NCBI RefSeq assembly: GCF_008040105.1
Contig: NZ_VRMG01000008.1
Coordinates: 372,001-436,000, forward strand
DNA: 64,000 nucleotides
Source of the DNA: Lacisediminihabitans profunda
Lineage (GTDB): Bacteria > Actinomycetota > Actinomycetes > Actinomycetales > Microbacteriaceae
Direction: 5' to 3'
This document shows positions 51,821 through 63,749 of the stretch, one piece after another (the first letter of the stretch is position 1; every line of letters starts with the position of its first letter). The position numbers and the translations under genes were made by a program. A model generated the notes under the pieces. The model was given only the letters and a program-made list of their open reading frames with translations, searched no databases and was not told the DNA's origin.

Positions 51821-52651
51821 ATGACAATGGACCTCATCGACGTGCGCGAGATCCGGGTGCCGAACGCCCGTGACGGACTGGTCTTCGCCCCCGGCGAGCG
51901 ACCCCTCGGCGGCGGCACCTGGCTGTTCTCGGAGCCGCAGCCCGGGCTCACCGGGCTCGTCGACCTCACCGCGCTCGGCTGGGATCCGATCCGGCGCACG
52001 GAGGCCGGCCTGGAGATCGCCGCGACCTGCACGATCGCCGAGCTCGCCGCCCTCACGCCCCGGGAGTCTCGCGACCCGCGGCCAGGCCAGGCCGCCGACG
52101 CGCTCTTCTGGCAGTGCGCCGGCTCGCTGCTCGCGTCGTTCAAGATCTGGAACGTGGCGACCGTCGGCGGCAACGTCGCCCTGGCCCTGCCGGCCGGGCC
52201 GATGACATCCCTCGCCGCCTCCCTCGACGCCGTCGCCGTCATCTGGACGGCCGACGGCGGCGAGCGCCGCACGCCCGTCGCCGAGCTCGTCACCGGGGTG
52301 CGCAGCACGGGGTTGACCCATGGGGAGGTGCTGCGGTCTCTCGAGATTCCGGAGTCGAGCCTCGCCGCCCGCACCGGATTCCGCCGCATCGCCCTCTCGC
52401 CCCTCGGCCGCGCCGGCACCGTCGTGATCGGCAGGGTCGACTCCTCCGGCGAGACGGTGATCACGGTGACCGGCGGCACGACCAGGCCGCACCAGCTGCG
52501 CTTCGACGAAATTCCCGGGGAGCGCGCCCTCGCCGACGCGGTGGACGGGATCGACGACTGGTATTCGGATGCCCACGGCACGCCGGACTGGCGGCGGGCG
52601 ATGAGCCTGCTCTTCGCCGAGCAGCTGCGGGGGGAACTGGAGGCGACATGA
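51821..52651 (+). CDS. FAD-binding subunit of a molybdenum hydroxylase (XdhB/CoxM-like)
   Basis: 276 aa from ATG 51821 (ATG 51827 equally possible; no ribosome site, so perhaps leaderless). FAD-binding motifs: PLGGGTWLFSEPQ near residue 29, TCTIAELAAL near 70, VGGNVALALPAGPMTSLAASLDA near 115. Passes electrons from the iron-sulfur centres to NAD+ or another acceptor. Overlaps the next gene by ATGA. Substrate class is purine/aldehyde/heterocycle, as judged by the neighbouring deaminases. Confidence 0.86.
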   Translation: MTMDLIDVREIRVPNARDGLVFAPGERPLGGGTWLFSEPQPGLTGLVDLTALGWDPIRRTEAGLEIAATCTIAELAALTPRESRDPRPGQAADALFWQCAGSLLASFKIWNVATVGGNVALALPAGPMTSLAASLDAVAVIWTADGGERRTPVAELVTGVRSTGLTHGEVLRSLEIPESSLAARTGFRRIALSPLGRAGTVVIGRVDSSGETVITVTGGTTRPHQLRFDEIPGERALADAVDGIDDWYSDAHGTPDWRRAMSLLFAEQLRGELEAT

Positions 52652-55335
52652 GGTTCGAGGTGAACGGAGAACCGGTCGACGCCGAACCGCACCCCGGCCA
52701 GGTTCTGCGCAGCCTGCTGCGGGAGCTCGACCACTTCGAGGTGAAGAAGGGCTGCGACTCCGGCGACTGCGGCGCGTGCTCAGTGCTGCTCGACGGCGCG
52801 CCCATCCACTCGTGCATCTACCCCGCGCACCGGCTGGAGGGGGCGGCCGTGACCACGGTCGCCGGACTCGGCACGCCGGAGCACCCGCATCCGCTTCAGG
52901 AGAGCTTCGTCGCGGCCGGCGGATTCCAGTGCGGCTTCTGCACCGCCGGCCTGATCGTGACGGCGTCGACCTTCACCGAGGACGACCGGCACGACCTGCC
53001 CCGCCTGCTCAAGGGCAATCTCTGCCGCTGCACCGGCTACCGGTCCATCGAAGACGCGATCCGCGGAGTCGCCAACACCGAGGCCGCCCCGACGGGCGAT
53101 CTCACCGGACGTTCCGTCGCCCCGCCGGCGGCCCTGCGGGTGGTCACCGGCACCGAGGGCTACACGCTCGACCTCAGGACCACCGGGCTGCTGCACCTCG
53201 CCGTGCTCGGCAGCCCGCACGCGCACGCCAGGATCGTCTACCTCGACACGAGCGCGGCCGAGGCGATGGACGGGGTGCACGCCGTGCTCACCTACCGCGA
53301 CTCGCCGGCCACCCTCTTTTCCACCGGTCGGCACGAGCAGCGCACCGACGACCCGGATGACACCCTCGTGCTCGACCCGGTGCTGCGGTTCCACGGCCAG
53401 CGCGTCGCCGCGGTGGTCGCCGATAGCGTGGCGATCGCCGAGCGCGCCCTCGCCGCCATCCACGTCGGGTACGACCTGCTGCCCGCCGTCTGGGACCCGG
53501 AGGAGGCCCGCTCCCCCGGCGCGCCGCTGCTGCACGCGACGAAGGGGCCGGAGTCCCGCATCGCCGACCCCGCGCGCAACACCGTCGCCGAGTTCCACCG
53601 CGAGACCGGCGACGTCGAGGCGGCGCTCGCCACGGCCGACGCCGTGGTCACCGGCACGTGGCGCACCCAGCGGGTGAACCACGCCGCGCTCGAGACGCAC
53701 GCCACCCGCGGCTGGCTCGATGCCGACGGACGGCTCGTGCTTCGCACCTCCAGCCAGGTTCCGTTCCTCGTGCGCGACGAGCTGTGCCACATCTTCGGCC
53801 TCGACACCGACCGCGTGCGGGTCTTCACCGCCCGGGTCGGCGGCGGCTTCGGCGGCAAGCAGGAGCTGCTCACCGAGGACCTCGTCACCCTGGCCGTGCT
53901 GCGCACCGGCCGCGCGGTGCAATACGAGTTCACCCGGGAGGACGAGTTCCGCACGGCCCCGCCGCGGCATCCGATGCGCGTCACCGTCACCCTCGGGGCC
54001 AGCCGCGACGGCGTGCTCACCGCGATGGCCGTCGACGAGCTCGCGGACACCGGCGCGTACGGCAACCACGGCATCGGGGTGATGTACCACAGCATCCACG
54101 AGTCGACGAGTGTCTACCGCTGCCCCAACAAGCGGGTGGATGCCCAGTCGGTGTACACGAACAACCTGCCGTCCGGCGCCTTCCGCGGCTACGGTCTCGG
54201 GCAGGTGATCTTCGCGGTGGAGTCGGCGATGGACGAGCTGGCGCGCACGCTCGGGATCGACCCGTTCGAGCTTCGACGGCGCAACGTGATCGTGCCGGGC
54301 GACCCGATGATCGTCGCGGACGCCGACGAACGCACGGACCTGCTGATCGGCAGCTACGGCCTCGACCAGTGCCTGGACCTCGCCGAGGCCGCACTGGCGA
54401 GGGGCAACGGGGTGGGCGCGCCAACCGGTGACACCTGGGCCGTCGGCACGGGGATGGGCATCGCGATGATCGCGACCGTCCCGCCCCGCGGCCACTTCGC
54501 AGACACGAGCGTGAGCCTGCTCGACGATGGGCGCTTCGAGGTGAACGTGGGCACCGCCGAGTTCGGCAACGGCACCACGACGGTGCACGCCCAGTTCGTG
54601 GCGACCGCCCTCAACACGACGGTGGACCGCGTGGTGATCCTGCAGTCGGACACGGATGTCGCCCGGTACGATACCGGCGCCTTCGGCTCGGCCGGTGTCG
54701 TCGTGGCCGGCAAGGCGCTGCTCGCGGCCAGCGGCAAGCTGAGGGAGCGCATGCTCGCCCGGGCAGCGTCGCTCGGCTATCTGGGCGGCGTCGTCGAGGG
54801 CGGCGGCGTGCGTGCCGGGGACATTCTCGTTCCGGCAGAGAAGCTGCTCGCGGCCGGCCCGCTCATCGCCGACGGGAGCCACGACGGAACGCCGCGATCG
54901 GTCGCCTTCAACGTGCACGCCTTCCGGGTGGCGGTCGACCGGGCGACCGGCGAGGTGCGAATCCTGCAGTCGATCCAGGCCGCCGACGCGGGAACCGTGC
55001 TCAATCCCGAGCAGTTGCGCGGGCAGATCGAGGGCGGGACGGCCCAGGCGATCGGCACCTCCCTCTACGAGGAGCTGCGGCTCGACAACGAGGGAACCGT
55101 CACGACCGCGGCGTTCCGCAACTATCACGTGCCCCAGTTCGCGGACATCCCGCACACCGAGGTCTACTTCGCGTCCACGCACGACCCGTTCGGGCCGCAC
55201 GGCGCCAAGTCGATGAGTGAGGCCCCGTACAACCCGGTCGCCCCCGCCCTCGCGAACGCCGTGCGCGACGCCCTCGGCATCCGCCCGTTCGAGCTTCCGA
55301 TGTCGCGCGACCGGGTGTGGCGGCTCGGCGAGTAA
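52648..55335 (+). CDS. Fused 2Fe-2S / molybdopterin subunit of xanthine-dehydrogenase-type hydroxylase
   Basis: 895 aa from ATG 52648 (GGAGG upstream). Residues 1-155: plant-type 2Fe-2S (CDSGDCGACSVLLDGAPIHSC) and the second [2Fe-2S] fold (GGFQCGFCTAGLIVT ... GNLCRCTGY). Residues 165-895: molybdopterin domain with LETHATRGWLDADGRL, RVGGGFGGKQELL, SGAFRGYGLGQVIF, a GAKSMSEAPYNPVAPALANAV C-terminus containing the expected catalytic Glu. Two-subunit layout with FAD separate, as in some aldehyde/purine oxidoreductases, instead of three subunits. No Moco-insertion gene (XdhC) is in the window. Confidence 0.9.
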   Translation: MRFEVNGEPVDAEPHPGQVLRSLLRELDHFEVKKGCDSGDCGACSVLLDGAPIHSCIYPAHRLEGAAVTTVAGLGTPEHPHPLQESFVAAGGFQCGFCTAGLIVTASTFTEDDRHDLPRLLKGNLCRCTGYRSIEDAIRGVANTEAAPTGDLTGRSVAPPAALRVVTGTEGYTLDLRTTGLLHLAVLGSPHAHARIVYLDTSAAEAMDGVHAVLTYRDSPATLFSTGRHEQRTDDPDDTLVLDPVLRFHGQRVAAVVADSVAIAERALAAIHVGYDLLPAVWDPEEARSPGAPLLHATKGPESRIADPARNTVAEFHRETGDVEAALATADAVVTGTWRTQRVNHAALETHATRGWLDADGRLVLRTSSQVPFLVRDELCHIFGLDTDRVRVFTARVGGGFGGKQELLTEDLVTLAVLRTGRAVQYEFTREDEFRTAPPRHPMRVTVTLGASRDGVLTAMAVDELADTGAYGNHGIGVMYHSIHESTSVYRCPNKRVDAQSVYTNNLPSGAFRGYGLGQVIFAVESAMDELARTLGIDPFELRRRNVIVPGDPMIVADADERTDLLIGSYGLDQCLDLAEAALARGNGVGAPTGDTWAVGTGMGIAMIATVPPRGHFADTSVSLLDDGRFEVNVGTAEFGNGTTTVHAQFVATALNTTVDRVVILQSDTDVARYDTGAFGSAGVVVAGKALLAASGKLRERMLARAASLGYLGGVVEGGGVRAGDILVPAEKLLAAGPLIADGSHDGTPRSVAFNVHAFRVAVDRATGEVRILQSIQAADAGTVLNPEQLRGQIEGGTAQAIGTSLYEELRLDNEGTVTTAAFRNYHVPQFADIPHTEVYFASTHDPFGPHGAKSMSEAPYNPVAPALANAVRDALGIRPFELPMSRDRVWRLGE

Positions 55336-55373
55336 CCCCCGCCCCGCCGTCGTGCCCGGCCCGCCCCGCCATC

Positions 55374-55431
55374 GTGCCCTTTTGTCGACATTGGGCCCGC
55401 TCGAGCCGGCACAGACACGACAAACGGGCAC
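55374..55431. repeat. Short palindromic intergenic element, copy 2 (inverted)
   Basis: GTGCCCTTTTGTCG (55374-55387) and CGACAAACGGGCAC (55418-55431), one mismatch. Its reverse complement aligns along its full length with the 37193-37252 element, sharing GTGCCCGTTTGTCG, TGTGCCGG and TCGAGCGG. Runs into the hexamer array. Confidence 0.75.
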
Positions 55432-55491
55432 CGGCACGGGTACCGGCACCGGCACCGGCACGGGTACCGGCACGGGTACCGGCACGGGTAC
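55426..55491. repeat. Hexanucleotide tandem array, 11 units
   Basis: Eleven consecutive hexamers of the form (C/G)GG(C/T)AC, mostly alternating CGGCAC and GGGTAC, between the Mo-hydroxylase stop and the amidohydrolase start. Contains no start codon and no sign of being translated in either direction as a real gene. Length is likely to vary between strains. Confidence 0.9.
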
Positions 55492-55568
55492 CGGATGCCC
55501 TCTGGCGGGCGGGCGCGGCGACGCTGGCACGACATCAGCCCGACACATCGGCGTGCTAGGAACTGACC

Positions 55569-56858
55569 ATGCTCACTCTCTCCGGCGCCCTCCGCATCGT
55601 CATCGACGAGACCACCGAGCGCGAGGGCGATCTCGTCGTCGACGACGGGGTCGTCGTGGCGGCGGCGCGCACGGGCGGCGAGACCATCGACGTCTCGGGC
55701 TGCGTGCTCACCCCCGGGCTCGTCAACGCCCACCACCACCTGCTGCAGACCGCCTTCCGCACCCTGCCGGGCACCCGCGGGGTGCCGATGGCCGACTGGC
55801 TGCCGACGATGGCCGCCGCCTACTCCCGGGTGGGAGTGGATGCCGAGCTCGCCCACGCTGCCGCGTCGGTCGGCGTCGCGGAGGGCCTGCTCAACGGCGT
55901 GACGACCGTCGCCGACCACCACCTCACCTGGCCGGCCGGAGCGGACACGGTCGCCATCGCGCGGGCGACGGCGGGGGCGGTGCGCGGCCTCGGCGCCCGG
56001 CTCGCCTTCGTGCGCGGCTCCGCCCGCGACGACCCACAGGAGGCCGCGGCCTCCGCCGAGGCCATCGTCGCGGCGCTGCTGCCCGGCGCTGCCGGTGGGG
56101 TGAGCGCCGACGGGATGCTCCAGCTCGCGGTGGGGCCGGCCGGGGTGCACAGCGACTGCCGCGAGACCTTCGAGCTTTTCGGCGAGTTCGCCGCGCGGCA
56201 CGGGCTGCGCCGTCGCACCCAGGCCAACGAACAGGTGGATGTGGCGATCGCGCTGGAGAGGTACGGCCGCCGCCCGATCGACCTGCTCGAGGAGTGGGGC
56301 TGGCTCGCCCCGGACGTGACGCTCGCCCACCTCTGCGACCTGACCGGCACGGAGATCGCGCGCCTCGCCTCCGCCGGCATCACCGCCACCCACGCCCCGG
56401 GCTGCGACCTGCCGATGGGCTGGGGGATCGCCCCGGTGGCCGCGTTGCGCGCCGCCGGCATCACCGTGGGCCTCGGCACCAGCGGGGGCGGCAGCAACGA
56501 CGCCGGCCACCTGCTCGCGGATGCCCGGCTCGCCATGCAGGTGGCCCCGCTCGTCGGTCCGCCGATCGACGCCCGCTCGGTGCTCGCCATGGCGACGGCC
56601 GGCTCCGCCGCCGGACTCGGCCGGCCGGAGCTCGGGCATCTGCGCGCGGGCGCGGCCGCCGATCTCTGCGTCTGGGACGTGTCGGGAGCCGCGGATGCCG
56701 GGGTGGCCGACCCGGTGGCGGGCCTGCTCTGGGCGAACCCCGGCCGCCGTCCCCGGCACGTGGTCGTGGCGGGGCGGGTCGTCGTGCGCGACTACGAGCT
56801 CGTGCACGAGGACGAGCGGGAGCTCGTCGCCACCCTCCGGGAGCGGATCGACCGCTAG
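55569..56858 (+). CDS. Amidohydrolase, 8-oxoguanine-deaminase-like
   Basis: 429 aa. Metal motif HHHLLQT in TPGLVNAHHHLLQTAFRTLPG near residue 57; further ligands in GPAGVHSD, LAHLCDL and ATHAPGCDLPMGWG, then TSGGGSNDAGHLLADARLAMQVA near 305. Fits the SsnA/8-oxoguanine-deaminase/hydroxydechloroatrazine branch that removes ammonia or amines from heterocycles. ATG 55569 lies 6 nt after AGGAACTG. Follows the Mo-hydroxylase in direction, separated by the palindrome and hexamer array. Confidence 0.85.
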   Translation: MLTLSGALRIVIDETTEREGDLVVDDGVVVAAARTGGETIDVSGCVLTPGLVNAHHHLLQTAFRTLPGTRGVPMADWLPTMAAAYSRVGVDAELAHAAASVGVAEGLLNGVTTVADHHLTWPAGADTVAIARATAGAVRGLGARLAFVRGSARDDPQEAAASAEAIVAALLPGAAGGVSADGMLQLAVGPAGVHSDCRETFELFGEFAARHGLRRRTQANEQVDVAIALERYGRRPIDLLEEWGWLAPDVTLAHLCDLTGTEIARLASAGITATHAPGCDLPMGWGIAPVAALRAAGITVGLGTSGGGSNDAGHLLADARLAMQVAPLVGPPIDARSVLAMATAGSAAGLGRPELGHLRAGAAADLCVWDVSGAADAGVADPVAGLLWANPGRRPRHVVVAGRVVVRDYELVHEDERELVATLRERIDR

Positions 56859-57051: not shown

Positions 57052-58002
57052 CTACAGGTCGAGCACGAGCCGCGGTCCGGCCGCGCGGGAGACGCAGATG
57101 TACATCACCGTGTTCTCCGCCTGCTCGTCCGGCGTGAGAATCGAGTCCCGGTGGTCGACCTCGCCCTCCAGCACCACCGTCTCGCAGGTGCCGCAGGTTC
57201 CCTCGCGGCAGCTCGACAGCACGAAGGCGCCCGCCTCCTCCGCGAGATCGAGGATGCTTCGCTCCGGCGGCACCGTCACCGTCACTCCCGTGCCAGCGAG
57301 TTCCACCTCGAACGCCTCGTCGAGCACGGGCGGGCCGAGGGTCTTCGCCTCGAAGCGCTCGACGTGCAGCGGCCTGCCCGCCGCGGCGGTCTCGACCGCG
57401 TCGATGTAGTGGGCCGGACCGCAGCAGTAGACCACGTAGTCCGGATCGAGGTCGGCGAAGAGGGAGTCGAGATCGAGTCGGTCCCCCTCGTCGGAGGCGT
57501 GCACGACCACGCGGCCCTGGTGGGCCGCGCTGAGCTCGTCCACGAGCGCCATCGAGCTGCGGGACCGCCCGGAGTAGTGCAGGGTGAAGTCGACTCCCGC
57601 CGCCGCGGCCGCGTCGACCATCGCCGCGATCGGCGTTATCCCCACTCCGCCGGCCAGGAACAGGGAGCGGGTGCCGGCCGGCGGCGCGAAGGCGAAGTGG
57701 TTGCGGGGGCCGCGCACGCGCAGGGCAGCGCCGACATCCAGCGCGGAGTGCAACCAGGCCGAGCCTCCCCGACCGGTCGGCTCGCGAAGCACGCCGATGC
57801 GCCACGATCCGGCGGGGGCCGGCACCAGCGAGTACTGCCGTTCGCCGATGCCGGGCAGGATCACGTCGATGTGCGCGCCGGGGGTCCAGGCGGGCAGCGC
57901 CGCCCCGTCCGGGGCGCGCAGCTCGAAGATGTCGACGTCGTCCGACGCACGGCTGCGCCCGACCACGACCGTGTCGAGTTCGGTCTCGTGGTGATCCGTC
58001 AC
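57052..58002 (-). CDS. PDR/VanB-type oxygenase reductase
   Basis: 316 aa from GTG 58002, coupled by GTGA to the XRE-cupin gene. FMN domain with RQYSLVPAPAG near residue 54, NAD domain LAGGVGITPIAAMV near 115, and YCCGPAHYIDAVE near 195, then C-terminal plant-type ferredoxin CREGTCGTCETVV ... MYICVSRA. This architecture reduces Rieske oxygenases (phthalate, vanillate). No oxygenase is in the window, so the partner lies outside or the protein serves another acceptor. C-terminal third resembles the 42004 protein. Confidence 0.88.
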   Translation of the reverse strand: MTDHHETELDTVVVGRSRASDDVDIFELRAPDGAALPAWTPGAHIDVILPGIGERQYSLVPAPAGSWRIGVLREPTGRGGSAWLHSALDVGAALRVRGPRNHFAFAPPAGTRSLFLAGGVGITPIAAMVDAAAAAGVDFTLHYSGRSRSSMALVDELSAAHQGRVVVHASDEGDRLDLDSLFADLDPDYVVYCCGPAHYIDAVETAAAGRPLHVERFEAKTLGPPVLDEAFEVELAGTGVTVTVPPERSILDLAEEAGAFVLSSCREGTCGTCETVVLEGEVDHRDSILTPDEQAENTVMYICVSRAAGPRLVLDL

Positions 58003-58598
58003 AGTCGTACCGGCTTCTCTTTCACCACGAAGAGCCGATAGCCGTCGGCGTCGATGGCGCTCCAGCGGTGCGGCGTCCCGCCCACGTAGTAGAGCGAGTC
58101 GCCCTCGCGCAGGGTGGACGTGCCATGCTCCGCGAGGTCGATCACCACGGTGCCTGCCACCACGTGCACGAACTCGTCCTCGGCGTGAACGAAGTACTCG
58201 CCGGCGTCGAGATTGTCGCCCGTGAACTCCATGGGGTGGAACTTGCGCCTGCCGTGCACGAGCAGCCGCCCGGTGCCGCCGCCGTACGGTCCGCGGGTGC
58301 CCTCGTCGGCGCGCACGAGCACGGTCGGGGACTCGGTCGACTCCGCCTCGTCCTCGGCCGCCGCCATGAGCTCGAGCTGGCTCGACCCCAGGGCTCGCGC
58401 GATCTTCTCCAGCGACACCATGCTCGGGCGGGCGCGGCCGCGTTCGAGCTGGCTGAGGAACGGATGCGACAGCTGGGCCAACGCCGCCAGCTGAACGAGC
58501 GTGAGGCCGCGGGCCCGACGGAGGGCGCGGATGCGACCGCCGATTGCCGCGGCCTGCTGGTCGATCGCGGTCTCGAGCGGGGGGTCGAGCGTGCTGAC
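57999..58598 (-). CDS. XRE-family HTH plus cupin regulator, start codon not evident
   Basis: Up to 199 codons are given. The protein has a full XRE HTH (GGRIRALRRARGLTLVQLAAL then AQLSHPFLSQLERGRARPSM) and a C-terminal cupin (ADEGTRGPYGGGTGRLLV, HAEDEFVHVVAGTVVIDLAEHG, SLYYVGGTPHRW). Between the in-frame stop upstream and TTG 58481 there is no ATG, GTG or TTG; TTG 58481 would cut the HTH in half. A perfect AGGAGG (58609-58604) stands 5 nt before a GTC codon at 58598, as if a GTG start had changed to GTC. The coordinate uses that GTC. Cotranscribed with the reductase; divergent from the deaminase operon. Confidence 0.6.
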   Translation of the reverse strand, partial: VSTLDPPLETAIDQQAAAIGGRIRALRRARGLTLVQLAALAQLSHPFLSQLERGRARPSMVSLEKIARALGSSQLELMAAAEDEAESTESPTVLVRADEGTRGPYGGGTGRLLVHGRRKFHPMEFTGDNLDAGEYFVHAEDEFVHVVAGTVVIDLAEHGTSTLREGDSLYYVGGTPHRWSAIDADGYRLFVVKEKPVRL

Positions 58599-58693
58599 GT
58601 TGTCCTCCTGGTCTGCGATTGGGCCGGCCTCCGGCGGGCCCGGAGTCCACTATCGCCGCACCGGCGGGATCGGCGGCGGCCTTCTCCCGGCAA

Positions 58694-58730
58694 TTTACAC
58701 GTCGAAACGGGGCCGTTACACGCCGGAAAC
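58694..58730. promoter_or_regulatory. Candidate GlnR nitrogen-control box
   Basis: TTTAC-n5-GAAAC-n6-GTTAC-n6-GAAAC: four half-sites of the actinobacterial GlnR consensus (gTnAc-n6-GaAAc, twice), of which the right pair (58715-58730) fits exactly. Located between the XRE-cupin gene and the deaminase-ABC operon. Whether this organism has GlnR is not shown here. Confidence 0.5.
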
Positions 58731-58750
58731 GCGCGGTGCCTAGCCTCGAC

Positions 58751-58771
58751 AATGTTGAGGTTATCAACATT
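58751..58771. promoter_or_regulatory. 21-bp perfect dyad, likely XRE-cupin operator
   Basis: AATGTTGA-GGTTA-TCAACATT: perfect 8-bp arms with a 5-nt spacer, between the divergent XRE-cupin and cytosine-deaminase-like genes. An ATGTTGA half-site also occurs at 51809-51815 before the FAD subunit. Confidence 0.6.
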
Positions 58772-58833
58772 CGCGTGTAACCGGCTCAGCGCTGCGGTGG
58801 CTGCACACCCCCTTGGATTTAGGGAGGCCGCCC

Positions 58834-60102
58834 ATGCCCACGCTTCCCCGTCGACTGACCCTGCTGACAAACGCCGCGCTCCCCGACGGCTCGCTGGTCG
58901 ACGTCGAGCTCGACGGCGACACCGTGTGCAGCGTCTTCCCGGCCGGCACCGGTCGACCGGCCACCGCCCATCTGCCGGGTGCCTCCCTCGATCTCGACGG
59001 CTTTCTGCTCCTCACCGCGCCGGCCGAACCGCACGCCCACCTCGACAAGGCGCTGTCCTGGGACCTGATCAACCCGCCCATGGGCGACCTGGGCCTGGCG
59101 ATCGCCTCGTGGAAGGACTACTCCTCCGTGATGACGGTGGAGAGCATCGCCGATCGGGCCAGGGAGGCCGCGCTGCTCATGCTGCGGCAGGGCACGACCG
59201 CGGTGCGCAGCCACGTGGACATGCTCACCGGGGACGACCCGCTGCGCGGCGTGCACGCCCTCTGCCGGGTGCGGGACGAGCTCGCCGGCCTCATGGACAT
59301 CGAGCTCGTCGCCCTCGCCGGCTGGAACACGATGGACTCCACCATCGAGCAGGCGCTCGACCTCGGCGTGGAGCTGGTGGGCGGGGCCCCTCATCTCGCC
59401 CCGGAGCCGCACGACGACCTCGGCCGTCTGCTCGCGATCGCCGAACGCCGAGGCGTCGGCGTCGACATCCACACGGACGAGGGCCTGTCCGGCGAGCCCA
59501 CGATCATCGAATTCGCCAGGATCGTGCGGGACTGGCCGGCCACCCGGCCCGCCTCGGCCGGGCACTGCGTGCGCCTCGGCACTCTCGAACCCGATGTGCT
59601 GCAGGCGGTGATCACCGAGGTGCTCGCGAGCGACATCGGAATCATCTCCCTGCCGATCACGAATCTCTACCTGCAGGGCTGGCAGCACGAGGTGTCCACG
59701 CCGCGCGGCCTCACCGCCCTGCGCGCGCTGCTGGATGCCGGAGTGCGGGTGGGGGCCGGCGCGGACAACGTGCGCGACCCGTTCAACCCGGTGGGGCGCA
59801 GCGACGCTCTCGAGACGGCGTCGCTGCTCGTGACCGCCGGCCACCTCACGCTCGACGAGGCGTACGCCGCGGTGAGCTCCGGGGCGCGCTCGGTGATGTC
59901 TCTCCCCCTCGCCGGCGTCGAGGTAGGGGCCCGGGCGGAGCTGCTCGCCGTGCGCGGCGCCTCCCTCTCGGATGTCGTGGCCAACGCCTCGGCCGACCGT
60001 TTCGTGATCCACGCCGGCAGCCTCGTCGCCCAGAGCCGGGTGACCTACGAGGTGGCCGCGCCCTCCCCCGCTCCGCTAACCAGAAGAGAGGTGATGCTGT
60101 AG
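58834..60102 (+). CDS. Cytosine-deaminase-like amidohydrolase (CodA/AtzC family)
   Basis: 422 aa from ATG 58834 (GGGAGG upstream). Metal and substrate motifs: PAEPHAHLDKALSW near residue 61, RSHVDML near 124, DIHTDEGLSG near 209, AGHCVRLGTL near 240, GAGADNVRDPFNPVGRSD near 305. Known members deaminate cytosine, isopropylammelide or related rings. First gene of the operon with a NMT1/Tau-type ABC importer, so it likely acts on what that importer brings in. The exact ring is not determined. Confidence 0.87.
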   Translation: MPTLPRRLTLLTNAALPDGSLVDVELDGDTVCSVFPAGTGRPATAHLPGASLDLDGFLLLTAPAEPHAHLDKALSWDLINPPMGDLGLAIASWKDYSSVMTVESIADRAREAALLMLRQGTTAVRSHVDMLTGDDPLRGVHALCRVRDELAGLMDIELVALAGWNTMDSTIEQALDLGVELVGGAPHLAPEPHDDLGRLLAIAERRGVGVDIHTDEGLSGEPTIIEFARIVRDWPATRPASAGHCVRLGTLEPDVLQAVITEVLASDIGIISLPITNLYLQGWQHEVSTPRGLTALRALLDAGVRVGAGADNVRDPFNPVGRSDALETASLLVTAGHLTLDEAYAAVSSGARSVMSLPLAGVEVGARAELLAVRGASLSDVVANASADRFVIHAGSLVAQSRVTYEVAAPSPAPLTRREVML

Positions 60103-60882
60103 ATGTCCGCGACAGCTCCCGTGCGGCCCACCGCCGCGTCCCGGTCCGCCGGAACCCTGCTCGACTTCACCAACGTGGAGATGACCTTCCCCAACGGCAC
60201 CGTCGCCCTCCGCGGGGTCGATCTCACCGTGAAGCGGGGCGAATTCGTCACCGTTGTCGGCCCATCGGGCTGCGGCAAGTCGACGCTCCTGCGCATCGCG
60301 TCGGGTCTCGAGGTGTCCTCGGAGGGCAGCGTCGTCGTGGACACCGATCGCATCGGCTACGTCTTCCAGGACGCGACGCTGCTGCCCTGGCGATCCGTCG
60401 CCGACAACGTGGAGCTGCTGGCCGAGCTGAACGGCATGAAGGCGAAGGAGCGCCGGGCGAAGGCGCAGGAGGCCATCGATCTGGTCGGGCTCGGCGGCTT
60501 CGAGAAGAACCTGCCCAAGCAGCTGTCCGGGGGCATGAAGATGCGCACCTCGCTCGCCCGCTCTCTCACCCTCGAACCGGAGCTGTTCCTCTTCGACGAG
60601 CCGTTCGGCGCCCTCGACGAGATCACCCGCGAGCGCCTCAATGACGAGCTGCTCCGGCTCTTCGTGGAGAAGCAGTTCGCCGGTCTCTTCATCACCCACT
60701 CCGTCTCCGAGGCCGTCTACCTGTCGACCAAGGTCGTGGTGATGTCGGGCCGGCCCGGGTCGATCGTGGGCACCTTCGACGTGCCTTTTCCCATGCCGCG
60801 GGATCCGGACATCCGCTTCACCCCGGAGTTCGGAGCCCTCGTCGGCGAAGTCTCGCACGCTCTCCGAGAGGGGCACCGCTGA
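60103..60882 (+). CDS. NitT/TauT-family ABC transporter ATPase
   Basis: 259 aa; ATG directly follows the deaminase stop, with AGAGAGG upstream. Walker A GPSGCGKSTLL near residue 52, Q-loop VFQDATLLPW, signature LSGGMKMR, Walker B LFLFDEPFGALD, H-loop FITHSVSEAVYLS. Family takes up taurine, sulfonates, nitrate, pyrimidine precursors and related compounds. Confidence 0.9.
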   Translation: MSATAPVRPTAASRSAGTLLDFTNVEMTFPNGTVALRGVDLTVKRGEFVTVVGPSGCGKSTLLRIASGLEVSSEGSVVVDTDRIGYVFQDATLLPWRSVADNVELLAELNGMKAKERRAKAQEAIDLVGLGGFEKNLPKQLSGGMKMRTSLARSLTLEPELFLFDEPFGALDEITRERLNDELLRLFVEKQFAGLFITHSVSEAVYLSTKVVVMSGRPGSIVGTFDVPFPMPRDPDIRFTPEFGALVGEVSHALREGHR

Positions 60883-61733
60883 TGGCGTCCGTCGACCAAC
60901 TCGCCCTCGCGACCGGTCGCGTGGCCCGGGACGCCCGCATCCGTCGGGTCTACGCCAGGCGAAGCGCCCAGTGGTGGCCGCCGATCGCCGTGCTGGCGTT
61001 GCTCGTGGGCTTCTGGTACCTCGTTGCCGCCTACTACGACAGGGTGCAGGGCCTCGCCTTCCTGGTTCCGTACCCGCACCTCGTGCTCAAGGCCGCGTTC
61101 GCCGATCCGCTGTTCTCGCCGCAGCTGGTGCAGGACCTCGGCAACTCGACCCAGGTGGCGCTCACCGGTCTGGTCGTGGCGATCATCATCGGAGTGGCCT
61201 GGGCGATCCTGATGTCCCAGGCGAAGTGGATCGAACGTTCGCTCTATCCCTACGCGGTGATCCTGCAGTGCATCCCGATCCTCGCCCTCGTGCCGCTCAT
61301 CGGCGCCCTCTTCGGCTACGAATTCCTCTCCCGAGTGATCGTCACGGTGATGATCTCGATCTTCCCCATGGTCTCGAACACCCTGTTCGGGCTGCAGTCG
61401 GTGGATCGGGCGCAGCGCGAGCTCTTCACCCTCCAGGGCGCCGGTCGCTGGACCACGCTCACCAAGCTGCAGTTTCCGGCCGCGCTGCCGTCGATCTTCG
61501 TCGGGCTGCGCACGGCGGCCGGCCTCTCGGTGATCGGCGCGATCGTGGGCGACCAGTTCTTCCAGCGCGGCACCCCCGGCCTCGGTGTGCTCATCCAGGT
61601 CTCCACCTCGAGGCTGAACGGCGCGGGCACCTACGCCGCCATCCTCACCGCGTCGGCGCTCGGCGTGGTCGTCTTCCTCGTCTTCGGACTGCTCGGCCGG
61701 CTGGTCGTCGGCAAATGGTACGACTTCGGCTGA
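60882..61733 (+). CDS. NitT/TauT-family ABC transporter permease
   Basis: 283 aa, ATG 60882 overlapping the ATPase stop (TGATG). Six membrane spans; EAA loop QGAGRWTTLTKLQFPAALPSIFVGLRTAAGLSVIGAIVG near residue 190 is the typical SsuC/TauC pattern. Forms the channel for the next gene's binding protein. Confidence 0.9.
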   Translation: MASVDQLALATGRVARDARIRRVYARRSAQWWPPIAVLALLVGFWYLVAAYYDRVQGLAFLVPYPHLVLKAAFADPLFSPQLVQDLGNSTQVALTGLVVAIIIGVAWAILMSQAKWIERSLYPYAVILQCIPILALVPLIGALFGYEFLSRVIVTVMISIFPMVSNTLFGLQSVDRAQRELFTLQGAGRWTTLTKLQFPAALPSIFVGLRTAAGLSVIGAIVGDQFFQRGTPGLGVLIQVSTSRLNGAGTYAAILTASALGVVVFLVFGLLGRLVVGKWYDFG

Positions 61734-61801: not shown

Positions 61802-62980
61802 ATGCACAGAACAGCAGTCCGCTCCACCATCGCCGTCGGCATGGTGTTCGCTGCGGGAATCGCCCTGGCCGGTTGCGCGAGCAGCCCGTCCAGCAGCAGT
61901 AGTTCGGCACCGACCGCCGCAGCAGGCGCCGTCGACCTGTCCGCCGTCTGCCCGGCGACCGTCATCATCCAGACCGACTGGAACCCGGAGGCCGACCACG
62001 GCCACCTCTACCAGCTTCTCGGACCGAATCCCGTGATCAATGCCGACAAGAAGTCGGTGAGCGGCGACCTCTACTCCGGCGGCAAGTCCACCGGGGTCAA
62101 GGTCGAGGTACGCTCGGGCGGCCCGGCCATCGGCTACTCCACCGTGAGCTCGGAGCTCTACAAGGACAAGGACATCACCCTCGCCTACGTCTCCACGGAC
62201 GAGGCCGTGCAACTGTCGGCGACCCTGCCGACCACCGCGGTCTTCGCCGAGAACAACATCTCCCCGCAGATGATCATGTGGGACCCGTCGACCTATCCCA
62301 AGGTCAAGACCATTAAGGACCTCGGAGAGGCGCTCAAGGCGGACGGCGGGGTCGTGCGCTACTTCCAGGGTGCCGCGTACATGGGCTACCTGCAGGGCTC
62401 GGGGATCCTCCCGGAGGCGCAGACCGATGGCGCCTACGACGGCACCCCGGCCAAGTTCGTCACGGCCAAGGGCAAGGACGGCCAGCAGGGCTTCGCCACC
62501 GCCGAGCCGTACATCTACCAGAACGAGGTGAGCGCGTGGGGCAAGCCGGTGGACTTCCAGCTGATCAACGACACCGGCTACCCGATCTACCCGGAGGCCG
62601 TCTCGGTGCGCAGCGGTGACCTCGAGAAGCTCGGCCCGTGCCTCAAGAAGCTCGTGCCGGTGCTGCAGCAGGCCGACGTGGACTACATCTCGAAGCCGGC
62701 GGCCACCAACAAGCTCATCGCCGACCTCGTCACGGCCTACAACAACGGCTGGGTCTACTCCGAGAAGGTCGCGGACTTCGGCGTCGGCCAGATGACGAAG
62801 CTCAAGATCGCCTCGAACGGCGACAACGCCTACGTCGGAGACTTCGACGTGGCACGGGTGCAGAAGGTCATCGACATCGACACCCCGCTGTTCACGAAGA
62901 CCGGGTCTGCCCCGAAGGCCGGCCTCAAGGCGACCGACCTGTTCACCAACGAATTCATCGACAAGACGATCGGATTCTGA
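61802..62980 (+). CDS. NMT1/THI5-like ABC solute-binding lipoprotein
   Basis: 392 aa from ATG 61802 (GAGGAG upstream). Signal with lipobox L22-A-G-C25, Ser-rich linker, then an NMT1-like periplasmic binding domain (VIIQTDWNPEADHGHLYQLLG near residue 57, FAENNISPQMIMWDPSTYP near 150, YISKPAATNKLIADLV near 295). Proteins of this type bind pyrimidine and thiamine precursors or aromatic acids. With the deaminase in the operon, a pyrimidine-like ligand is favoured (inference). Confidence 0.87.
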   Translation: MHRTAVRSTIAVGMVFAAGIALAGCASSPSSSSSSAPTAAAGAVDLSAVCPATVIIQTDWNPEADHGHLYQLLGPNPVINADKKSVSGDLYSGGKSTGVKVEVRSGGPAIGYSTVSSELYKDKDITLAYVSTDEAVQLSATLPTTAVFAENNISPQMIMWDPSTYPKVKTIKDLGEALKADGGVVRYFQGAAYMGYLQGSGILPEAQTDGAYDGTPAKFVTAKGKDGQQGFATAEPYIYQNEVSAWGKPVDFQLINDTGYPIYPEAVSVRSGDLEKLGPCLKKLVPVLQQADVDYISKPAATNKLIADLVTAYNNGWVYSEKVADFGVGQMTKLKIASNGDNAYVGDFDVARVQKVIDIDTPLFTKTGSAPKAGLKATDLFTNEFIDKTIGF

Positions 62981-62987
62981 CCCCCTC

Positions 62988-63749
62988 ATGAATGATCCAC
63001 TGGTGACGGCGACCGGGCGGCTCGCGGGCAAGCGCGTCGTCGTCACCGGTGGGGCACGAGGCATCGGCGGCGCGATCGCCGGCCGATTCGCGTCGGAGGG
63101 CGCGAGCGTGGCGATCCTCGACCGGCTCGTCGACGAGGGATCGCGCCTCGCCGTCGCGCTCGGCGGCAGCTTCCACTCCGTCGACCTCGTCGACCCGGTG
63201 GACACGATGGCCGCCACCGAGGCGGCGATCGCCGGACTCGGCGGCATCGACATCCTCGTCAACAGCGCCGGCATCCTGCGCCTCCTGCCGTTGCTCGAGG
63301 TGACCGTCGCCGACTGGAACGAGATGTTCTCCATCAACACCCGGGCCATGCTCAGCACCATGCAGGTGGCCGCGCGGTGGATGATCGCGGCCGGCGATGG
63401 CGGCAAGATCATCAACCTCGCGAGCATGGCGGCGAAAAAGGGCGGGGCCGGCGAGGGCCACTACGCCGCCTCGAAGGCGGCCGTCGTCGCCCTCACCCGC
63501 GTCGCCGCGCTGGAGTGGGGCGAGCACGGCATCGTAGCGAACTCGCTCTGCCCCGGCTACGTTCTCACCGACATGGGCGCCGCCACCCGCACCGACGACG
63601 ACGTGAAGACCTGGTCGTCGTACTCCCCGCTCGGCCGTCTCGGCGAGCCGTCCGATGTGGCGGGCGTCGCCCTGTTCCTCGCGTCCCAGGACGCCAACTA
63701 CCTCACCGGCCAGGCGATCAACGTCACCGGCGGCATGGTCATGCACTGA
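62988..63749 (+). CDS. SDR-family NAD(P)-dependent oxidoreductase
   Basis: 253 aa. NAD(P) motif VVVTGGARGIGGAIA near residue 15, NSAGILR near 92, catalytic Ser/Tyr/Lys in INLASMAAKKGGAGEGHYAASKAAVVAL, and CPGYVLTDMG near 187. Seven nt after the binding-protein gene without a strong ribosome site (GTG 63003 is an alternative). Likely oxidises an alcohol intermediate of the pathway. Confidence 0.9.
   Translation: MNDPLVTATGRLAGKRVVVTGGARGIGGAIAGRFASEGASVAILDRLVDEGSRLAVALGGSFHSVDLVDPVDTMAATEAAIAGLGGIDILVNSAGILRLLPLLEVTVADWNEMFSINTRAMLSTMQVAARWMIAAGDGGKIINLASMAAKKGGAGEGHYAASKAAVVALTRVAALEWGEHGIVANSLCPGYVLTDMGAATRTDDDVKTWSSYSPLGRLGEPSDVAGVALFLASQDANYLTGQAINVTGGMVMH

Follow-up and report, generated by a model that had tools for sequence, protein, structure and literature searches.

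We report that a box composed of four GlnR half sites, located at positions 58694-58730 of a 64,000-nucleotide stretch of the Lacisediminihabitans profunda genome (from here on the window), is almost certainly a real GlnR docking site in the promoter of a predicted nitrogen-scavenging operon. We hold with high confidence that this box is a functional GlnR element which would activate the deaminase-ABC-SDR operon, and that a palindrome downstream of it would serve as the operator of a divergently encoded XRE-cupin repressor. The original prediction had placed the deaminase-ABC operon under nitrogen control, and this proposal gains support at the sequence level, as GlnR is encoded in the genome and the motif occurs at nitrogen genes. 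The features of the locus are collected in Table 1.

Table 1. Features of the deaminase locus (positions in the window)
Feature	Position	Strand	Remarks
2Fe-2S ferredoxin reductase	57052..58008	-	same operon as the XRE-cupin gene, whose end it overlaps
Divergent XRE-cupin regulator	57999..58598	-	HTH_31/HTH_3 and Cupin_2; apparent start GTC
Shine-Dalgarno AGGAGG of the XRE-cupin gene	58604..58609	-	5 nt before the GTC start
GlnR box, a-b-a-b	58694..58730	+	TTTAC-n5-GAAAC-n6-GTTAC-n6-GAAAC; unique in the genome, scored high by a matrix made from glnA promoters only, conserved at orthologous deaminases
Inferred -10 hexamer TAGCCT	58741..58746	+	same spacing and hexamer as glnA of the same genome
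Probable operator palindrome TGTTGAGGTTATCAACA (TGTTGA-n5-TCAACA)	58753..58769		intact with the XRE-cupin gene, decayed or gone without it
Shine-Dalgarno agggagg of the deaminase gene	58821-58827	+	
Cytosine-deaminase-like amidohydrolase	58834..60102	+	first gene of the operon; PF07969/PF01979
ABC transporter ATPase (nitrate/taurine type)	60103..60882	+	
ABC transporter permease (SsuC/TauC type)	60882..61733	+	
ABC substrate-binding lipoprotein	61802..62980	+	by position and conserved synteny
SDR-family oxidoreductase	62988..63749	+	conserved next gene

The best solved relative of the deaminase is the cytosine deaminase of E. coli, and its scores lie below the NCBIfam equivalog cut-offs. The substrate-binding protein is conserved in relatives and had no Pfam or NCBIfam match at E 0.001. 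Further upstream, at 51827-56858, the window encodes a molybdenum hydroxylase (xanthine-dehydrogenase-like) with its Fe-S and Mo domains fused into one 895-aa protein, a FAD subunit and an 8-oxoguanine-deaminase-like enzyme (55569-56858), the gene of which adjoins the deaminase locus in most relatives. The molybdenum hydroxylase is separated from the 8-oxoguanine-deaminase-like gene by a stretch which holds a tandem array of about 6 copies of the 12-bp unit ACGGGTACCGGC (55424-55494).

The GlnR box and its counterparts at nitrogen genes

Direct reading of the plus strand gives TTTAC-acgtc-GAAAC-ggggcc-GTTAC-acgccg-GAAAC, with the half sites a1 at 58694-58698, b1 at 58704-58708, a2 at 58715-58719 and b2 at 58726-58730, so that the position and the spacings originally proposed are right. 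The box is on the coding strand of the deaminase, 103 bp upstream of its ATG at 58834. Both b sites and a2 match the GlnR consensus exactly, which bears out the claim that the right half is exact, and the description of the whole as near-canonical is a fair one: its departures are a first spacer of 5 instead of 6 bp and a T in place of G at the start of a1 (TTTAC), and both of these are common to most orthologous deaminase promoters. With the shorter first spacer the box does not have the 6-bp spacers throughout which would define a GlnR-regulated promoter strictly. In M. smegmatis the spacing tested was AC-n9-AC and only changes of 3 bp were tried (PMC3662644); the n5 spacer departs from this spacing, which we counted against GlnR. 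We nevertheless treat n5 as a variant and not as an exclusion from GlnR-regulated promoters, because it is conserved in the orthologs and because the layout of published GlnR sites also varies (PMC10704036).

A degenerate pattern of the box matched the window once, with 0 mismatches, while the number of matches expected by chance with up to 3 mismatches allowed is 0.03 per window. Across the 4.0-Mb genome, where scans were made by pattern only, the box was the sole match of the n5 pattern with 0 mismatches; the next two matches had 3 mismatches and the reversed-pattern control gave 1. The strict n6 pattern found only glnA at 1 mismatch in the whole genome, and the window site needs 3 under this pattern because its first spacer is n5. 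When the right half box together with the -10 was searched genome-wide only the window site was returned and the wider regulon was not recovered, amtB being missed because its a2 is displaced. An independent matrix of 54 columns, covering box, spacer and -10, was built solely from the glnA promoters of 28 other genomes and takes in nothing from deaminase promoters. On the window it scored +27.8 bits at 58694 with n5 spacing, against -4.4 for the next-best unrelated position and -1.4 for the best position in 12 shuffled windows. In two sets of deaminase upstream regions 96% and 83% of the real sequences reached a box score of 14, compared with 0 dinucleotide shuffles.

The regulator on which the original prediction depends is present: a GlnR ortholog is encoded at G000:C85:71820-72509 on the minus strand, as one of 14 Trans_reg_C proteins. 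Among solved structures it is closest to 8hih (E 2.6e-81) and 8hig, and the isolated domains 8hml, 4o1i and 4o1h come next. The record of 4o1h is labelled "Transcription regulator GlnR"; 8hih, the M. tuberculosis GlnR transcription complex, is recorded only as "Transcriptional regulatory protein". GlnR was found in 53 of 60 related genomes (E <= 1e-60). The expectation that the same box would precede both glnA and amtB held well for glnA and in part for amtB. The glnA promoter of this genome reads GTAAC-n6-GAAAC-n6-GACAC-n6-GAAAC, followed after 10 bp by TAGCCT, and matches 17/18 consensus bases; the amtB promoter is weaker (13/18), with three good half sites (GTAAC-n6-GAAAC and, in register, GAAAT), a poor a2, and CAAACT after a further 10 bp. 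The box is carried by the glnA, amtB and deaminase promoters of relatives alike. Best box scores of the family promoters averaged 16.6 of 18 for glnA and 14.2 for amtB (29 each), against 10.3 and 10.4 for dinucleotide shuffles. At amtB (G000:C106:347948-349138; L029/L080) a GTGAC is present 3 bp upstream of the expected place of a2, and a weak a2 is also seen in the amtB promoters of relatives, unlike in those of glnA.

Promoter geometry across orthologous deaminase genes

The -10 hexamer of the deaminase begins 10 bp after b2, and both the hexamer and the gap are identical at glnA; a -35 element of the conventional kind would overlap the stretch from a2 to b2. Deaminase relatives were drawn from the Microbacteriaceae (Glaciihabitans, Frigoribacterium, Lacisediminihabitans, Herbiconiux, Subtercola, Galbitalea and others) and, further out, from Psychromicrobium and Kineosporia. 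About 38 Microbacteriaceae-type loci have the box in front of the orthologous deaminase gene, always 10 bp before the -10, which takes the form TANNNT with positions 1, 2 and 6 nearly invariant. Kineosporia has the right half box only, and the GlnR box is absent from the most distant deaminase homologs (L137 and L143), both of which we weigh against the GlnR reading. Over 40 distinct loci the information per column was 1.05 bits for the box, 1.40 for the -10 and 0.92 for the palindrome, with 0.20 and 0.27 for the flanks. The right half box and the -10 served as anchors of this alignment, which thus partly selects matches there; the left half box and the palindrome were unselected by the anchoring, yet they are conserved too. 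For the first spacer n5 gave the better fit at 28/40 loci and n6 at 3/40, with 9/40 tied, and on these counts the shortened first spacer is, as read from the alignment, a trait of the deaminase promoter family; n5 is usual there as opposed to the 6 bp of glnA and amtB. The geometry of the -10 identifies what would be a promoter of the activator type. In the amtB promoter of S. coelicolor a2 occupies the -35 position and recruitment of polymerase by GlnR has been proposed (PMC5826061).

The palindrome and the divergent XRE-cupin gene

The palindrome, with GGTTA between its two arms, lies at about +1, its first base being 12 bp downstream of that of the -10. It has no second perfect copy in the genome; a one-mismatch copy occurs at C139:204133, at a stringency at which matches to the reversed-pattern control outnumber those to the pattern itself. 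The palindrome is intact in every one of the 37 distinct loci where a divergent XRE-cupin gene is adjacent, and its offset is nearly constant, the exception being L126 where it lies at +23. In each of the six loci without the XRE gene (L012, L013, L014, L116, L117, and L136) it is degraded or absent, and these same loci retain the GlnR box, in whole or at least in its right half. From counts entered by hand (35/0 vs 0/6) a Fisher test gives 2e-7, a value which is overstated as the loci are related and go back to perhaps three independent losses. In Kineosporia both have changed together: the recognition helix reads THGFLSK instead of SHPFLSQ, and the operator has TGTTCC/GGAACA in place of TGTTGA/TCAACA, with a perfect palindrome retained. 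The regulator carries PF13560/PF01381 and PF07883 above cut-off in one protein, and its match to NCBIfam PuuR is far below cut-off. XRE-cupin proteins are known as local repressors of adjacent metabolic genes that act through palindromic sites (PMC7901475), and here the palindrome is intergenic and beside the regulator's own gene, as for a local repressor. The palindrome is thus probably the operator of the divergent XRE-cupin regulator, and its position at about +1 suggests repression of the adjacent genes.

The XRE-cupin gene itself apparently starts at a GTC codon (58596-58598, minus strand). From the upstream stop codon to the middle of the HTH there is no in-frame ATG, GTG or TTG. In relatives the matching codon is GTC, GTT, ATC or ATT, with a Shine-Dalgarno sequence ahead of it, in L009, L010, L011, L015, L017, L018, L021, L022, L028, L111, L114, L119, L121, L123, L127, and L131, and ATG or GTG in others; a canonical in-frame start before the HTH is likewise missing in L011, L015, L022, L111, and L119. 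Two other explanations of the reading frame were considered and rejected: an internal start at the TTG at 58481 would remove the first part of the HTH, and for a frameshift from another frame there is no upstream start that is consistent across the relatives. There is precedent in sigR of Streptomyces, where a GTC start was tested and GTT is present in two species (PMC5472188); as there, AGGAGG is followed by GTC or GTT and the second codon specifies a small residue. The present, predicted case differs in that another gene family and bacterial family are concerned and that ATC and ATT also occur in relatives. If real, these non-canonical starts would be one more well-conserved case of something for which tested examples are very few, and automatic annotation would misplace the start of the gene.

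Two predicted inputs and alternative explanations

In the mechanism we propose, subunits of GlnR, an OmpR-family protein, would occupy the four half sites in head-to-tail order across the -35 region and, under nitrogen shortage, recruit RNA polymerase to turn on the deaminase-ABC-SDR operon. The XRE-cupin protein would sit at the start point and keep transcription off until a metabolite of the pathway is bound by its cupin domain; expression of the operon would then require both a shortage of nitrogen and the presence of the substrate. As a second operator lies at the inferred start of transcription, nitrogen is probably just one input out of two to this promoter. Both deaminase-type enzymes, that of the operon and the 8-oxoguanine-deaminase-like one, would release ammonium, which fits nitrogen control. 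We also lean, with rather less assurance, towards a conserved gate in which the n5 GlnR box and the operator at +1 would be combined with a gatekeeper made, in many Microbacteriaceae, from non-canonical starts, either at a low level or under control by initiation factor 3 as in Streptomyces sigR.

That the box is a chance match has a negligible probability. One short spacer and one non-consensus base could be cited in its favor; it was rejected on the glnA-matrix score, the uniqueness in the genome, the low expectation per window and the orthologs, which conserve the box and not its flanks. Another OmpR-family regulator such as MtrA could be the main binder of the box, with GlnR in a minor part: in Streptomyces the two proteins compete at nitrogen genes (PMC10704036) and one of the Trans_reg_C proteins is MtrA-like (L003), by resemblance only. 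Against this, glnA promoters have the same GAAAC b-sites and -10 geometry, and the decisive part at nitrogen genes is assigned to GlnR in the same review (PMC10704036), which makes a leading role for MtrA very improbable. Scarcely more probable is that GlnR binds as a repressor, or that its target is the divergent XRE-ferredoxin reductase operon and not the deaminase. Some targets are indeed repressed by GlnR (PMC10704036) and the region is divergent, but the gap from box to -10 is fixed at 10 bp on the deaminase strand in all relatives, is kept even where the XRE gene is missing, and equals the arrangement at glnA. For the palindrome, a site of another regulator or a structural element is unlikely, though less so than the foregoing; the correlation with the XRE gene comes from few independent losses, but the palindrome both co-occurs with that gene and co-varies with the recognition helix. 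We therefore retain activation by GlnR, with the palindrome as the XRE-cupin operator, as the preferred reading.

The box resembles other actinobacterial GlnR boxes, for which the S. coelicolor consensus from glnA, amtB, and nasA is gTnAC-n6-GaAAC-n6-GtnAC-n6-GAAAC (PMC10704036), in its a-b-a-b order, the exact b2, the coding-strand orientation, the -35 overlap, and the presence of an encoded GlnR; it differs in the n5 first spacer and the T at base 1 of a1, both conserved in deaminase promoters. In M. smegmatis GlnR is already known to control nucleobase uptake and deamination; the regulon there includes xanthine/uracil permeases, a dihydropyrimidinase and the deaminase MSMEG1298 (PMC3662644), and n5 is a mild variant. 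The predicted GlnR control described here likewise concerns genes for nucleobase uptake and deamination in nitrogen scavenging, whereas the transporter is TauABC-like and the enzyme cytosine-deaminase-like; an operator at the start point was not sought in M. smegmatis. The XRE-cupin regulator is similar to PsdR, ErfA, and PauR of Pseudomonas (PMC7901475) in combining XRE and cupin domains, in being divergent to a metabolic operon and in having an intergenic palindrome, and dissimilar in being actinobacterial and paired with a GlnR box; repression and its ligand are in our case inferred. The less expected parts are the two-operator design and the start codon of the XRE-cupin gene.

In the literature searched, little beyond M. 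smegmatis was found on GlnR control of purine genes in actinomycetes and almost nothing on GlnR in Microbacteriaceae. By our prediction an uncharacterized operon for nucleobase-like uptake and deamination joins the nitrogen regulon of this family, and the linked operator predicts how the global nitrogen state and a specific substrate signal may be combined. The matrix and the geometry can be used for finding further GlnR targets in Microbacteriaceae. About 41 kb downstream of the window site (G000:C150:473000-476500; L041) there is a protein which by resemblance is like the nitrate regulator NnaR and combines a uroporphyrinogen-III-synthase-like part with an OmpR-type winged helix.
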